Below are positions 42,249 to 59,067 of a stretch of 64,000 nucleotides of DNA, piece after piece. The notes beneath the pieces are model-generated. The model was not told where the DNA came from, made no database searches, and saw only the letters and a list, made by a program, of their open reading frames with translations. Within the stretch, counting starts at the first letter, position 1. Every line of letters begins with the position of its first letter. A program made the translations under genes and the position numbers. This DNA is from Blastococcus colisei (lineage in GTDB: Bacteria > Actinomycetota > Actinomycetes > Mycobacteriales > Geodermatophilaceae), in NCBI RefSeq assembly GCF_006717095.1, contig NZ_VFQE01000001.1, positions 3,410,001 through 3,474,000 on the forward strand, read 5' to 3'.

Positions 42249-44033
42249 TCAGCGCAGGCGGCGGGTGTTGTCCGGCAGCCGGACGGTGACCCCCTGGGCG
42301 TCGAGCCACTCGGCCAGCGGGACGGCGACCCGGCGACTGGTGCCCCACGCCTGCCGGGCCTGGCTCAGCGTGAACGGCTGCGCGACGGTCGCGAGGCGGG
42401 CGCGGGCGACCTCGGCGATACCGGGGGCGAGGTAGACGCCGTCGGCGATCCGCACGAGGCGGCCGCTGCGGACGGCCGCGGCCAGCTCCCGCACCCCGAG
42501 CCCGGCCGCGACCAGGTCCGGCGCCTCCGGAGCCGCGAAGGGGTCCCGCTCGAGCCGGGCCCGGATCTCGTCCACCGCCCGTTGCACCTCCGGCGGGAGC
42601 GCGGAGGCGCCGTCGACCACCCGCCCCTCGCGCAGCTCCAGGGGCGGCCGGACCACCGCGGTCACCAGGTCGACGTCGGGCAGATCGAGGGCCCGGCGCA
42701 CCACCTCGACCGGCGGGCCGGGCTCCAGCGGCCGCAGGGTCCGATAGCGGACCACGACGCCGGGCACGCGCTCAGCGAGATCGTCCTGCAGCCCGGCCGC
42801 CATCAGCCACCGTCCGTGGACGGTGGCACCGTCCGGCACCGGCCAGCCCATGGCCGTGAAGTCGTCGACCCGCACGATCCGGCGGCGCGCCAGGTCGACC
42901 GCGGCACCCGCCGTCCCTCCAGGCTGGGCGGCCAGTTCCGCGGCGCGCGCGCTGGCCGCCCCCCGACGGCGGAGCTCCGGCGGGTCGACGTCGCGGACGT
43001 CGGCACCGAGCACCCGCCGGGTGCCCGGATCGCGCAACAGCAACCGGTCGCCCACGCGCAGCGGCAGGGCGGCGGCCAGCCGCAGCCGGACCACCGATCC
43101 CTCCAGGGGCCGCAGCCGGGCGCCGACGGTCGCGGAGCCGATGTGCACCACCGGTTCGGCCGGCAGCCGCTCCCCCGGCTCGCCCTGGAGCGTCACGTCG
43201 ACGACGTCGGTCGAGCGGAAGGCGCCCGGGCTGAGCAGGACGTCGCCGCGGGAGAGGTCCTCGACCGCGACGTCCCGGAGATTGAGCGCCACGCGGGCGG
43301 TGGCGGTCGCGCGCTCGACCGGCGCCCCCAGCGACTGCACCCTGCGGACCACGACCTCCCGGCCGCCGAGCACCAGCCGGTCGCCGGCCGCCACGCTGCC
43401 GGCGGCCAGGGTGCCGGTCACCACGGTGCCGGCGCCCCGGATGGTGAAGGCGCGGTCGATCCACAGCCGCACGGGCGCGGACGGATCGGCCGGCGGCAGA
43501 CCCGCAAGCAGGCTCTCGAGAGCGGTCCCGAGGTCGCGGACCCCCTCACCGGTCACCGAGCTGACGGCGACGGCGGGCACGTCACCCAGGGAGGTCGTCG
43601 CCAGCCGCGCGCGGACGTCGGCCGCCACGGGCGCCGGGTCGGCGAGATCGGACTTGGTCACCGCCAGCAGGCCGTGCCGCACCCCGAGCGCGTGGAGCAC
43701 GTCGACGTGCTCGGCGGTCTGGGCCGACCAGCCGTCGTCTGCCGCCACCACGATCAGCACGGCCGGCACCGGGCCGACCCCGGCGAGCATGTTGCCCACG
43801 AACTTCTCGTGACCGGGCACGTCGACGACCGCCACCCGGCGTCCGGAGCGCAGCGTCGTCCAGGCGAAACCGAGGTCGATGGTCAGGCCGCGGCGCCGCT
43901 CCTCCGCCCAGCGGTCGGGCTCCATGCCGGTGAGCGCCCGGACGAGAGCGGACTTGCCGTGGTCGACGTGCCCGGCCGTGGCGACGACGTCCATGTGGTT
44001 GACGTCCGACTGGTCGACCGAGGGGGGTGTCAT
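42249..44033 (-). CDS. selB: Selenocysteine-specific elongation factor SelB
   Basis: A 594-residue translation factor bringing Sec-tRNA to recoded codons. G1 GHVDHGKS is at 21-28 and DVPGHEKFVGNMLAG and TKSDLAD follow. EF-Tu-like domains II and III occupy about 180-350. The C-terminal winged-helix repeats that bind the SECIS hairpin occupy about 390-594. ATG 44033 overlaps the selA stop (ATGA). In this genome SelB must work with a tRNA that reads UAG, but it recognises the tRNA body and the SECIS, not the codon. Confidence 0.97.
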   Translation of the reverse strand: MTPPSVDQSDVNHMDVVATAGHVDHGKSALVRALTGMEPDRWAEERRRGLTIDLGFAWTTLRSGRRVAVVDVPGHEKFVGNMLAGVGPVPAVLIVVAADDGWSAQTAEHVDVLHALGVRHGLLAVTKSDLADPAPVAADVRARLATTSLGDVPAVAVSSVTGEGVRDLGTALESLLAGLPPADPSAPVRLWIDRAFTIRGAGTVVTGTLAAGSVAAGDRLVLGGREVVVRRVQSLGAPVERATATARVALNLRDVAVEDLSRGDVLLSPGAFRSTDVVDVTLQGEPGERLPAEPVVHIGSATVGARLRPLEGSVVRLRLAAALPLRVGDRLLLRDPGTRRVLGADVRDVDPPELRRRGAASARAAELAAQPGGTAGAAVDLARRRIVRVDDFTAMGWPVPDGATVHGRWLMAAGLQDDLAERVPGVVVRYRTLRPLEPGPPVEVVRRALDLPDVDLVTAVVRPPLELREGRVVDGASALPPEVQRAVDEIRARLERDPFAAPEAPDLVAAGLGVRELAAAVRSGRLVRIADGVYLAPGIAEVARARLATVAQPFTLSQARQAWGTSRRVAVPLAEWLDAQGVTVRLPDNTRRLR

Positions 44034-45340
44034 CGCGCGGCGGCCGCCAGCACGGCGCCGGCGAGCTCCTCGTCGGCCGACGGCGGAACGCTGCGCAGGT
44101 TCAGCAGCGTGCGGTCGCCCTCGACGTAGCCGACCACCGGCGGGCTGCCCCGGCGCAGCAGCGCCGCGAAGGGCTCCGGCAGCGAGACCGCCGCACTGGC
44201 CAGCGGGTGCTCGGGGGCTCCTCCCCCGCCCACGCGGGCGTCGGCGTCGACGGCTCGGGCATCGAGGCCGGCGCCGGTGAACCGCGCGGCCAGCGAGTGG
44301 GCCCGCGCCCGCAGCCCGTCGAGGTCCGCGGCGAGCATCTCCTGCACCGGCGGCAGCGGACCACGCAGCGTCGCCTCCAGCGCCGCGAGGGTCGTCTTGT
44401 CCACCCGCAGGGCCCGGTACAACGGGTGCCGCCGCAGCCGCTGCACCAGGTCGGCGCGGCCCAGCACGAGCCCGGCCTGCGGGCCGCCCAGCAGCTTGTC
44501 CCCGCTGGCCAGGACGACGTCGGCGCCGGCGGCCAGAGTGCTCTGCAGGTCCGGCTCGTCGGGCAGGAGCGGATGCGGGCGCAGCAGGCCGGAGCCGACG
44601 TCGGCCACCAGCGGCGTGCCCGTCCCCGCCAGGGCGGCGGCCAGTTCGGCGACCTCGACCTGCCGGGTGAACCCGCGCACGACGAAGTTCGACGGGTGCA
44701 CCTTGAGCACGGCTCCGGTGTCGGGACCGAGAGCGCCTCGGTAGTCGGCGAGCGTCACGCGGTTCGTCGTCCCGACCTCCCGCAGCCGGGCGCCGGTGGC
44801 GGTCAGCAGCTCCGGGATCCGGAAGCCGTCACCGATCTCGACCAGCTCGCCCCGGGCCAGGACGAGCTCGCGGCCCTGGCCGACGGCGTTCGCGACCAGG
44901 GCCAGCGCGGCGGCGCAGTTGTTGACGACGATCGCGGCCTCGGCGGCCGGGACCGCGGCGAGCAGGGCCCCGATGGCCGCCTCGCCCCGCGGACCGCGAC
45001 GACCGGTGGTCAGGTCCAGCTCGACGTCGGTGGTGCCTGCGGCCGCGGTGATCGCCTCGACGGCGGCCGGCGACAGCGGCGAGCGACCCAGGTTGGTGTG
45101 CACCAGCACCCCGGTCGCGTTCAGCACCGGCTGCAGGCTGCTCGCGGTCCCCGGCAGCGACGCCAGCACCGCGTCGACCGCTGCCGTCGGGGCGACCTCG
45201 CCGTCGCGGATGCGCTGCTGCACCTGCTGGACGGCGCCCTTGACCAGGCCGCGACCGAGCCGCTCGCCGGCGGCGGACAGCCGAGGGTCGGCGAGCAGCG
45301 TGTCGGTGCGCGGCACGTGACGACGGGGGTCGGCGCTCAT
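44030..45340 (-). CDS. selA: L-seryl-tRNA(Sec) selenium transferase SelA
   Basis: A 436-residue PLP enzyme converting Ser-tRNA(Sec) to Sec-tRNA(Sec) with selenophosphate. The PLP lysine is Lys282 in VVLASGDKLLGGPQAG. The N-terminal domain that reads the tRNA D-arm and the ATGVLVHTNLGRSPLS segment are present. It lies between the tRNA-Sec gene (77 bases away) and selB in a selC-selA-selB order. Confidence 0.97.
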   Translation of the reverse strand: MSADPRRHVPRTDTLLADPRLSAAGERLGRGLVKGAVQQVQQRIRDGEVAPTAAVDAVLASLPGTASSLQPVLNATGVLVHTNLGRSPLSPAAVEAITAAAGTTDVELDLTTGRRGPRGEAAIGALLAAVPAAEAAIVVNNCAAALALVANAVGQGRELVLARGELVEIGDGFRIPELLTATGARLREVGTTNRVTLADYRGALGPDTGAVLKVHPSNFVVRGFTRQVEVAELAAALAGTGTPLVADVGSGLLRPHPLLPDEPDLQSTLAAGADVVLASGDKLLGGPQAGLVLGRADLVQRLRRHPLYRALRVDKTTLAALEATLRGPLPPVQEMLAADLDGLRARAHSLAARFTGAGLDARAVDADARVGGGGAPEHPLASAAVSLPEPFAALLRRGSPPVVGYVEGDRTLLNLRSVPPSADEELAGAVLAAAAR

Positions 45341-45417: not shown

Positions 45418-45513
45418 TGGCGGAGGCGGACGGGAATCGAACCCGCCTGACCGAGATGCTCGGCCACGTCGGCTTTAGAGGCCGCGGGGGTCACCAGACA
45501 CCCTGACGCCTCC
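45418..45513 (-). tRNA. selC: tRNA-Sec with CUA anticodon (reads UAG)
   Basis: On the minus strand: acceptor GGAGGCG pairs with CGCCTCC; a long D-arm; anticodon stem CGGC/GCCG closing the 7-base loop CTCTAAA; a long variable arm TGGCCGAG-CAT-CTCGGTCA (8 pairs, one G-U); T-arm GCGGG-TTCGATT-CCCGT; discriminator G and an encoded CCA. The 8-base extra arm and selA next door identify tRNA-Sec. The loop puts CTA, not TCA, at positions 34-36, so it decodes UAG instead of UGA. The eighth acceptor position is a T-C mismatch and the outermost anticodon pair is G-A. Confidence 0.95.
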
Positions 45514-45577: not shown

Positions 45578-46162
45578 ATGACCCGCTCCGAGCACCGCAC
45601 CGCCGCGACACTGCCTCCGGTCACCCTGACGCCCGAGGAGGCCGCGGCCGTCGCCGTCGCCCTCGCGGCTCGGCCCGACGGGCCTTACAGCGACGCCGGT
45701 CGCGGCGCTCTGGAGAAGGTGCTCGACGTGCTCGAGCCCGATCCGGCCCGGCGGGCCCAGTTGCTCGCCACGAGCCTGTGGGTGTCGGCCGAGGCGGGGC
45801 ACTCCGCCGACGTGCGAGCCGTCGTCGAGGAGTCGGTCGCACGGCGTCGCGTGGTGTCGCTGCGCTACCGCGACGGCAAGGGTCTGGCGTCCCGGCGCGA
45901 GGTGGAGCCGCAGCTGCTGGTCCAGAGCAGCGATCACCTGTTCCTGGTGGCGTGGTGCCGCGAGCGCGACGCACTCCGCTGGTTCCGCATCGACCGCATC
46001 GAGGCCGCCGAGGTCACCGGCGAGGCCGCACCCCGGCGCGACCTCGCCGGACTGGGTGCTCCGCCGTCCTCCGGCCACCCCGCGGGCCGGCGGCTGGGCC
46101 GGACGCCGCCGGTCACGACCGAGCCGCCCCGGCTCACGGTGCTGCCGGGTGGCCGCCGTTGA
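45578..46162 (+). CDS. WYL-domain protein
   Basis: A 194-residue protein carrying a WYL-type ligand-binding domain (about residues 75-150: VVEESVARRRVVSLRYRDGKGLASRREVEPQLLVQSSDHLFLVAWCRERDALRWFRIDRIEAAEV) but no N-terminal winged helix, so it is not a complete classical regulator. It is divergent from selC and just upstream of selD, so a link to selenium metabolism is possible but unproven. Confidence 0.75.
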   Translation: MTRSEHRTAATLPPVTLTPEEAAAVAVALAARPDGPYSDAGRGALEKVLDVLEPDPARRAQLLATSLWVSAEAGHSADVRAVVEESVARRRVVSLRYRDGKGLASRREVEPQLLVQSSDHLFLVAWCRERDALRWFRIDRIEAAEVTGEAAPRRDLAGLGAPPSSGHPAGRRLGRTPPVTTEPPRLTVLPGGRR

Positions 46163-46226: not shown

Positions 46227-47220
<994 letters not shown>

Positions 47221-47234
<14 letters not shown>

Positions 47235-57227: not shown

Positions 57228-57240
57228 GACGGCCTCCACA

Positions 57241-57282
57241 GCACCGTCTTGTCGCCCACCGGGTACGGCACCCCTCGTCCGG
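57241..57282 (-). ncRNA. Guanidine-III (ykkC-III) riboswitch
   Basis: The RNA starts CCGGACGAGGGG, continues GUGCCGUACCCGG and ends GACAAGACGGUGC, matching the guanidine-III class closely as I remember it. Helix P1 pairs CCGG with CCGG. A 7-base pseudoknot pairs GUGCCGU with ACGGUGC, keeping all pairs through two G-U wobbles. The conserved ACGAGG and GACAAGACGG blocks are intact. The 3' end is four bases before the GGAGG of the SMR gene. Ligand binding would free the site and induce export. Confidence 0.9.
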
Positions 57283-57303
57283 GAGCCGGATCGCGGCTCC
57301 GGT

Positions 57304-59067
57304 TCAGCTTCGCACGATCGCGGGTGCGGCCGCCCGGCCCTCGCGCAGCAACAGCAGCGAGGCCAGCGCCGCGAGGCCGGCCGCGATCGCCGCCCCGGCG
57401 AAGACGGTGTGCAACTGGGTGAGCACGGCCGCCTCCACAGCGGCGTCGTAGACGGCGCAGTCGGTAGGTGTCTCGGGGCAGAGCTCGAACGGGGTGCCGA
57501 TGGCATCCACCTCGGCGGTGAACCGGCGCAGCGCCACGGCGGTCAGGAGCGACAGCCCCGCGAGCATGCCCACGGTGCGGGCCACGACGGCGAGCGCGCT
57601 GGCGCTGCCGTGGACCTCGGCGCGGGTCACCGCCAGCAGGACGGCGTTGACCGGCGCGATCGCCAGGCCGAACCCGAGGCCGGCCGCGACCAGGACGACG
57701 GTCGAGGCGACGCCGTCCAGTGAGCGGGCGTCCCAGAGGGTCATGAGCACGAAGGCGACCGCGGTCAGCGCCATCCCCCCGGCGGCGACGAAGCGCGCGG
57801 GGACCGCGCGGCACAGCCAGCCGCCCGCCACCGCACCGACGGGGACGGCGACCAGCAGCCGGAGGAGCACGAGGGCGGCACCGAGCTGGTCGCCCGGCGT
57901 CGTGGTGGCGCGCGCGAAGAGCGGGATGTCGACGAGCGCCGCGACCAGCGCAGCCCCCACGAGCAGGTTGACCAGCAGGGCGCCCCACGCGCCGACCGGC
58001 CGCAGCGCCCGCAGCGGCAGCACCGGCTCGGCCGTCCGGCGCTCGTGCCACACGAAGGCCACCGTGGCCGCCAGCGCCACCGGGAGGAGCACCGGGCCGT
58101 GCGCCACGATCTGGGTCGCCGGGTCCGCGGCGGCGAACGCCCACACGAGGCTGCCCAGGGCGACGACGGCCAGCGCCGAGCCGACGACGTCGACCTCGCC
58201 GGCCAGCCGGCGCAGACCCCGCAGTGGCAGGACGGCGCCGTCCGGGGCCTTGAGGCTTCGCACCACGAGCGCCGCCCCGGCGGCCAGCGAGACCAGGACG
58301 AGGGGCGTCGTCCACTCCAGGGATTCGACGACGGGCACGTACAGCAGGCCGAGCGTCACGTCCTCCGCGAGCGCCACCGGAGCCGCCAGCTGGAGGCCGA
58401 GGGCGAGCGCGGTGACCGCCGCGAGGGCCAGCCCGAGGGCATCGGGGCGGCGCACCCCGCCGGTGACCACGGCGCCGACCGCGAGGGCCAGCCCGAGCAG
58501 CAGGTTCAGCCAGAAGATGGCCCGCCAGTCCGCGAACGCGAGCACCGCCGCTCCGGCCAGGGGGCCGAGCACCGCGCCGGCCTCCTGGACCGCGCCCACG
58601 ACGCCGAGGGGCAGCGCGCGACGCTCGGGGGGCCAGCGGTCGGCGACCAGGGCGAGGGTCGCCGGCACCAGGCCACCGGCGCCGATGCCCTGCAGCCCCC
58701 GGCCGAGGACGGCGGGGCCCAGGGCGTCGGCGGTGGCGGTGAGCAGCGAGCCGAGGGCGAACAGCAGCAGGCAGCCGACCAGGACGGGCACCCGCCCGCG
58801 CAGGTCGGCCAACCGGCCCAGCAGCGGGAGCGTGGCGGTGTAGCCGAGCAGGAAGCCGCCGACGATCGGCGTGGCCCGCTGCAGCTCGTCGAGCCCGACG
58901 CCGACCCCGGCGAGGATGTCGGGCAGGGCGAGGACGACGACGTAGGTGTCGGCCGCGGTGACCAGGACGGCCAGTGTGGCGAGGACCACGAGCGGGAGTC
59001 CGGGCGCCGGGTGCCGCTGGGCGCCGGGGACCTGCTCAGCCGGTGGGCGGTGCGGTGATCTCGACAT
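57304..59067 (-). CDS. MFS transporter (DHA2 family, Rv1410c-like)
   Basis: A 587-residue membrane protein with about 14 helices, of the DHA2 drug:H+ antiporter kind. Motif A-like GRLADLRGRVPVLVG lies after helix 2, and GLVPATLALVADRWPPERRALPLG follows helix 4. Its start overlaps the end of lprG by 32 bases. The lprG-MFS pair parallels Rv1411c-Rv1410c of mycobacteria, where the two export lipids or glycolipids to the outer envelope. Specificity here is unproven. Confidence 0.9.
   Translation of the reverse strand: MSRSPHRPPAEQVPGAQRHPAPGLPLVVLATLAVLVTAADTYVVVLALPDILAGVGVGLDELQRATPIVGGFLLGYTATLPLLGRLADLRGRVPVLVGCLLLFALGSLLTATADALGPAVLGRGLQGIGAGGLVPATLALVADRWPPERRALPLGVVGAVQEAGAVLGPLAGAAVLAFADWRAIFWLNLLLGLALAVGAVVTGGVRRPDALGLALAAVTALALGLQLAAPVALAEDVTLGLLYVPVVESLEWTTPLVLVSLAAGAALVVRSLKAPDGAVLPLRGLRRLAGEVDVVGSALAVVALGSLVWAFAAADPATQIVAHGPVLLPVALAATVAFVWHERRTAEPVLPLRALRPVGAWGALLVNLLVGAALVAALVDIPLFARATTTPGDQLGAALVLLRLLVAVPVGAVAGGWLCRAVPARFVAAGGMALTAVAFVLMTLWDARSLDGVASTVVLVAAGLGFGLAIAPVNAVLLAVTRAEVHGSASALAVVARTVGMLAGLSLLTAVALRRFTAEVDAIGTPFELCPETPTDCAVYDAAVEAAVLTQLHTVFAGAAIAAGLAALASLLLLREGRAAAPAIVRS

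Follow-up and report, generated by a model that had tools for sequence, protein, structure and literature searches.

Insertion of selenocysteine (Sec) at UAG instead of UGA is said to have been shown by labelling in Geodermatophilus and Blastococcus by Mukai and colleagues in 2016. For the same bacterial family, a later survey (Santesmasses 2017, PMC5330540) describes tRNA-Sec genes with anticodon CUA in three Geodermatophilaceae genomes, together with TAG codons in the genes for formate dehydrogenase (FDH), UGSC proteins and, in Blastococcus saxobsidens, AhpC. This source credits UAG-Sec in Geodermatophilaceae to Mukai 2016 (its reference 56), so the precedent named in the initial annotation of the locus studied here is a real one. 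The use of UAG or Cys codons for Sec by some bacteria is also mentioned in two other papers (PMC8124441, PMC10778597). Some years before, in 2013, Geodermatophilus obscurus had been listed as carrying a candidate pyrrolysine (Pyl) tRNA without a synthetase, with the note 'No UAG-anticodon' (PMC3639795), and we infer that this candidate was the CUA tRNA-Sec.

The locus described here lies in a window of 64,000 nt of the soil bacterium Blastococcus colisei, the window being the whole stretch of DNA that was analysed. Judging from sequence, the Sec machinery of this bacterium almost certainly decodes UAG as a Sec codon, as a Blastococcus-like Geodermatophilaceae system. UAG-for-Sec in this family is already published, and B. 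colisei is a further genome with no difference in kind; the side findings, on family members that keep UCA, on Geodermatophilus marinus and on a Coriobacteriia MAG, matter more than the B. colisei locus itself.

The sel locus and the TAG genes of Blastococcus colisei

The tRNA gene at the centre of this work, selC, had been placed exactly by the initial annotation, in coordinates as well as in strand (Table 1), and its description there as a tRNA-Sec body with a CUA anticodon is confirmed: ARAGORN, one of the programs proposed for checking it, reads the anticodon as cta, and the RF01852 covariance model identifies the gene as tRNA-Sec with 66.4 bits (gathering score 47, E 2.4e-11). The anticodon loop is CUCUAAA, the acceptor of 7 bp and the T stem of 6 bp add up to 13 bp, and the variable arm of eight bases and the encoded CCA claimed before correspond to a variable stem of 8 bp and a 3′ end GCCA, in which a G precedes the CCA. 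The fold has a z of -3.41, with equally good folding in 1 of 200 shuffles. Canonical UGA-decoding tRNA-Sec carries the anticodon UCA; selC has CUA instead and is therefore classed with the UAG-decoding set. The label 'tRNA-Pyl' given by ARAGORN we take as a consequence of the CUA anticodon.

As was also claimed at the outset, selA and then selB follow directly downstream of selC on the same strand, both with family matches above cut-off and with a gap of 77 nt between selC and selA. A selD gene, absent from the initial annotation, lies nearby in divergent orientation, and all four sel genes are found inside 5 kb. The selD frame is open from 46056 and its family match starts at residue 66 of this longer ORF, the GTG start at 46227 being our own choice. 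Between selC and selD there is a 194-aa ORF (45578-46162, plus strand) with no NCBIfam match, which by eye resembles what we presume to be a WYL-type regulator. Elsewhere in the window, a guanidine-III riboswitch (57238-57303, minus strand, 62.8 bits) has an MFS-transporter-like ORF (57304-59067, minus strand) on its upstream side.

Table 1. Location of the sel genes of B. colisei (window positions) and of the features described in G. marinus and the Coriobacteriia MAG (positions within loci L155 and L198)
Feature	Coordinates	Strand	Evidence	Remarks
selC, tRNA-Sec	45418..45513	-	ARAGORN, RF01852, fold	anticodon CUA at 45476-45478; CCA encoded
selA, L-seryl-tRNA(Sec) selenium transferase	44030..45340	-	TIGR00474, 417.9 bits (cut-off 267.9)	436 aa
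selB, Sec-specific elongation factor	42249..44033	-	TIGR00475, 280.5 bits (cut-off 242.25)	594 aa
selD, selenide water dikinase	about 46227..47234	+	TIGR00476, 387.1 bits (cut-off 125)	
G. marinus UCA tRNA-Sec	L155:1169-1263 (contig C17)	-	81.8 bits	body unlike that of its CUA tRNA
G. marinus AhpD-like gene	L155:1579-2157	+	TIGR01926, 112.6 bits (cut-off 81.8)	
Coriobacteriia MAG GrdB	L198:4895-6205		TIGR01917, 672 bits	one TAG, TST-TAG-GTCTRC
Coriobacteriia MAG GrdA	L198:10319-10792		NF040748, 274.6 bits	one TAG, ECFV-TAG-TSAG

The whole genome of B. colisei (5.16 Mb in four contigs) was searched for the partners of this tRNA. The RF01852 model gave seven matches including selC, the other six being three tRNA-Ser and one each of tRNA-Tyr, tRNA-Leu and tRNA-Met; a match of 48.2 bits, considered as a second tRNA-Sec, was rejected because it is a tRNA-Ser (tga). 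No second tRNA-Sec, with anticodon UCA or any other, was thus found in the genome by this model. Two of the 13 matches to the FDH model are genes with a single in-frame TAG, which falls in both at the Sec site (ENQARI-TAG-HSSTVPGL), and the remaining matches are stop-free, while the two matches of the UGSC family each have a single TAG at D-TAG-GSC. No TGA occurs within any of the FDH and UGSC matches of the whole genome. The search for selenoproteins covered the matches of these two families and of one hairpin model, among whose matches in the B. colisei genome there was no AhpC gene with TAG of the kind known from B. saxobsidens. Neither of the two results that the initial annotation had named as refuting it was thus found in the whole genome. 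The genome-wide pattern anticipated there is present, in the form of a TAG interruption followed by a hairpin in two genes each of FDH and UGSC, and the central claim of the annotation, that UAG encodes Sec here, is supported by a sole tRNA-Sec with anticodon CUA and by TAG at the Sec site of four genes.

In all four genes a predicted hairpin of 7-8 bp starts 11 nt past the TAG, with five apical bases of the form RGUNU (GGUCU in FDH and AGUGU in the B. colisei UGSC genes, AGUCU appearing in some relatives). An alignment of 17 FDH genes of the family, two of them from B. colisei, comprised 16 distinct hairpins, where standard pairs fill 112 of 112 base-pair cells and both sides have changed in a compensatory way at three of the seven pairs, a level reached by 4 of 500 shuffles. 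The covariation score was 0.361 versus 0.127 in shuffles, none of 500 scoring as high. Part of this constraint could be coding, but controls with slid partners, which share that coding, score at most 0.056. The UGSC hairpin is less uniform, with the two outermost pairs unformed in three of eight distinct sequences, a count that comes from 15 of 17 TAG genes (L222 and L226 left out; loci L233-L236 had no match to the motif used).

A covariance model of the hairpin was built from 17 sequences, including the UGSC pair of B. colisei and close kin of its FDH pair in place of the pair itself, and scored 150 of 16935 first-look candidates. In the B. colisei genome the four TAG sites obtained 46.8-54.3 bits and the next match 22.7 bits. 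Among the 30 matches inspected out of 35, 11 start with TAG, namely the four genes and seven weaker matches (22.7 bits or less); the frames of the latter look antisense by eye, and one of the seven, L293, is antisense to a gene.

These elements would fit together as follows. SerRS would charge the CUA tRNA-Sec with serine, which SelA would turn into Sec using selenophosphate from SelD; at a UAG with the hairpin behind it, and at no other, SelB would then deliver the Sec-tRNA, competing with RF1, and a UAG without hairpin would stay a stop. Such a use of UAG would mislead automatic gene calls throughout the family, with FDH and UGSC genes that look truncated and a tRNA that ARAGORN names Pyl.

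Sec codons in the family and rival readings of selC

A tRNA-Sec match was present in 108 of 112 Geodermatophilaceae genomes, and the best 30 matches of the family have anticodon CUA in 22 cases and UCA in eight. Seven of these eight belong to as many genomes, which fall into three genera (g5, g6 and g7) and are all fragmented drafts, probably MAGs, and the eighth is a second tRNA of G. marinus. When genome contigs were scanned with a pattern for CUA tRNAs of selC shape, 105 loci were obtained, of which 90 are tRNA-Sec-like, and 89 of these belong to Geodermatophilaceae by record name or by a near-identical tRNA, the exception being L145 of the Coriobacteriia MAG. The other 15 matches were rejected as tRNA-Sec: one on a Modestobacter contig (L141) and 14 under other titles, consisting of three tmRNAs, one group I intron, five ordinary tRNAs and a rest below the gathering score. 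A phage origin of the CUA tRNA-Sec was considered and also rejected; 16 viral contigs match the pattern, and the seven bodies printed by ARAGORN (contigs L268, L270, L272, L277, L279, L281 and L282) are by eye unlike tRNA-Sec, these CUA tRNAs being probably amber suppressors.

Some records of the survey are peculiar. In Blastococcus endophyticus CPCC 205247 (NZ_JABGCI010000003.1; L140, L154), a distance of about 59 kb separates two CUA tRNA-Sec genes whose bodies differ somewhat. MAG RYN_169 (G036; L097, L138) also has two, and is probably a mixed bin since the variable arm of L138 resembles that of Klenkia loci. CUA tRNA-Sec genes of Geodermatophilaceae type were seen as well under 'Bacillus sp. 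AZ43' (L064, unverified), a Jatrophihabitans MAG (L074) and a Frankiales MAG (L106), records that are likely misnamed or unplaced.

FDH of the B. colisei type was matched 121 times, in 97 of 108 genomes, and exactly one TAG is present in 115 of these matches. The remaining six are pieces, four in G079 and one each in G098 and G033, these last two not reaching the Sec codon. In G079 the gene is broken into frames (C12:814461-815448 and C4:1859-2882), one piece spanning the Sec residue stop-free and one having two TGA, as either a decaying gene or assembly errors would produce. Two incomplete genomes, G097 and G098, have a TAG FDH with no tRNA-Sec found, and this FDH was not matched in 11 genomes, nine of which belong to g5, g6 and g7. 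For the UGSC family there were 90 matches, spread over 52 of the 108 genomes; of these matches 69 contain one TAG, 21 are stop-free and none contains TGA. UGSC was matched in two UCA genomes, in both of them stop-free, so this family offers no TGA comparison. Four UCA genomes from two genera (G070, G072, G073 and G074) show one TGA within their FDH match, and in G072 and G070 the TGA was read in the sequence, followed by GGUCU at the distance found in TAG genes. The UCA genera have a different type of FDH from the CUA genera, with no match to the latter at E 1e-60, so codon and anticodon agree by lineage, and not as one gene seen in both states.

In a tree of SelA the four UCA rows fall on one branch (100/100 support), with one change. 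Of the usable SelA rows with CUA, about one in three entered this tree, and its 28 CUA rows included L145, which is identical to the outgroup row L198. The closest SelA to that of B. colisei in the tree is from Blastococcus tunisiensis (93%). The branch of the outgroup is very long, so it is from UCA being the general state, and not from the tree, that the direction of the switch is taken. That the family has members with UCA and members with CUA makes the order of events testable.

With these data other readings of selC can be weighed. Its CUA anticodon is common to tRNA-Pyl, and ARAGORN applies that very name; nevertheless, for selC to be a pyrrolysine tRNA and UAG to encode pyrrolysine seems to us extremely improbable, as the body, the neighbours and the target genes are of Sec type instead. 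Pyl tRNAs have a very short variable loop, whereas selC has a variable stem of 8 bp and an acceptor plus T branch of 13 bp, fits the tRNA-Sec covariance model and adjoins selA, selB and selD, and in both FDH and UGSC it is the Sec site that TAG occupies. We would give just as little credit to selC being a pseudogene or a sequencing error, with a Sec trait either dead or still based on UGA: nothing was found in favour of this, and against it stand the recurrence of CUA in 22 of the 30 best family loci and 90 of the 105 pattern matches, the four genes of B. colisei with TAG and hairpin, and the covariation of the FDH hairpin throughout the family.

A general amber suppressor, inserting Sec (or Ser) at UAG everywhere with no need of a hairpin, is highly unlikely too. 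The stop codons of the 45 coding-like ORFs of the window, chosen through third-position GC, are TGA in 37, TAG in seven and TAA in one, and such rarity of UAG would ease a full reassignment. However, a hemW-like ORF is among those ending in TAG, no match of the hairpin model lies inside the window, all four TAG sites of the genome are followed by the hairpin, and selB is present. UAG thus still terminates ordinary genes, which makes decoding of UAG as Sec in B. colisei look like a SECIS-gated recoding and not like a full reassignment.

Two anticodons in Geodermatophilus marinus and a CUA tRNA-Sec in Coriobacteriia

Like its relatives, G. marinus LHW52908 (G058) has a CUA tRNA-Sec (NZ_QVQH01000019.1), a TAG FDH and a TAG UGSC gene. 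On another contig its UCA tRNA-Sec stands divergent from an AhpD-like gene (Table 1), with 315 bp between them. This gene has a single in-frame TGA at RCFY-TGA-MESH, past which there is a hairpin of 7 bp that starts one base earlier than that of FDH and has the apex AGUUU. The pairing of a UCA tRNA-Sec with a TGA gene followed by a SECIS-like hairpin suggests that G. marinus may use two Sec codons. At E 1e-25 the AhpD-like gene has matches in six of 396 genomes of the phylum, each with one TGA, and no match in the B. colisei genome. In three of the six the TGA was read in the sequence (CHY-TGA, then a GGUCU hairpin), and a fourth (L284) has a UCA tRNA-Sec nearby, with what we read as a selB-like frame upstream.

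The contig also carries a single-copy gene, taken by eye as hemQ, with 91% identity to that of another Geodermatophilus, which argues against the whole contig being a contaminant. Its UCA tRNA end is, in our reading, rich in transposases, and GC is 0.62-0.66 over the initial 6 kb, then 0.70-0.73 up to 18 kb and 0.71-0.79 in most of the rest; given the transposases and low GC of that end, it may derive from a misjoin. Most likely, G. marinus would have acquired a UGA unit that is served by its native SelA and SelB. If it does use two Sec codons, this bacterium would represent a codon switch caught midway, as a living intermediate, or else a re-acquisition, and two anticodons would be shown to work simultaneously with a single SelA and SelB.

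The exception in the pattern scan, the Coriobacteriia MAG JAUNNF010000009.1, has a CUA tRNA-Sec (L145:7597-7693, 64.2 bits) with a body unlike that of Geodermatophilaceae, located directly after selA-selB (genes named by eye), and no other RF01852 match over the cut-off occurs in this MAG. The GrdA and GrdB genes of its grd operon have one TAG each, at what we take to be the Sec position of either family; its FDH match has no stop. The hairpin past the GrdA TAG is weak (-7.6 kcal/mol), and TAG also serves as an ordinary stop, for example after a frame that we read as GrdE-like. Among 60 genomes around this MAG, itself included, 31 have a tRNA-Sec match, and 27 of the 28 loci with a tRNA-Sec-like body by ARAGORN have UCA (two other loci and five further matches left aside), the one with CUA being that of JAUNNF010000009.1. 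The switch to UAG in Coriobacteriia would thus apparently be independent of that in Geodermatophilaceae, and a second origin would show that it is repeatable. We consider it reasonably likely, from these genomic comparisons, that the Sec codon would be unfixed even within one cell, with UAG and UGA under one SelA and SelB in G. marinus, and that a Coriobacteriia lineage switched independently to UAG for GrdA and GrdB.

Comparison with known systems

The available passages of PMC13188914, PMC7609411, PMC8318568 and PMC8762117 contain nothing on double Sec codons or on Coriobacteriia. In the open literature searched we did not meet UCA genera with TGA FDH, a dual code in G. marinus or a switch in Coriobacteriia, some of which Mukai 2016 may hold.

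The closest system is the published UAG-Sec of Geodermatophilaceae, which belongs to the same family and likewise has a CUA tRNA-Sec, TAG in FDH and UGSC genes and a bacterial SECIS hairpin, B. colisei differing in having two FDH and two UGSC genes. A UGA-based counterpart is found on plasmids, where UCA tRNA-Sec cassettes with FDH occur in Arthrobacter sp. YA7-1 (pYA7-1a, typed as conjugative) and in Tsukamurella tyrosinosolvens (plasmid 17, typed as non-mobilizable; L319, L320). Such plasmid-borne UGA-Sec units provide a precedent for the acquisition proposed for G. marinus. The cassettes keep the order of B. colisei, selB-selA-selC and then a divergent selD, and in their N-terminal part their FDH proteins have 68.5% (Arthrobacter) and 72.4% (Tsukamurella) identity to that of B. 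colisei. In contrast to the B. colisei locus, both have anticodon UCA and FDH genes attached, a TGA Sec codon having been read in Arthrobacter only. In a Nonomuraea FDH, 70.8% identical, there is TGC at the Sec site and no such hairpin. The Arthrobacter gene reads ENQARI-TGA-HSSTVP, with TGA at the same residue and the hairpin at the same place and of the same geometry (loop AGUUU); with respect to its UGA-using kin, B. colisei would therefore have changed the codon-anticodon pair while keeping the hairpin and its spacing.
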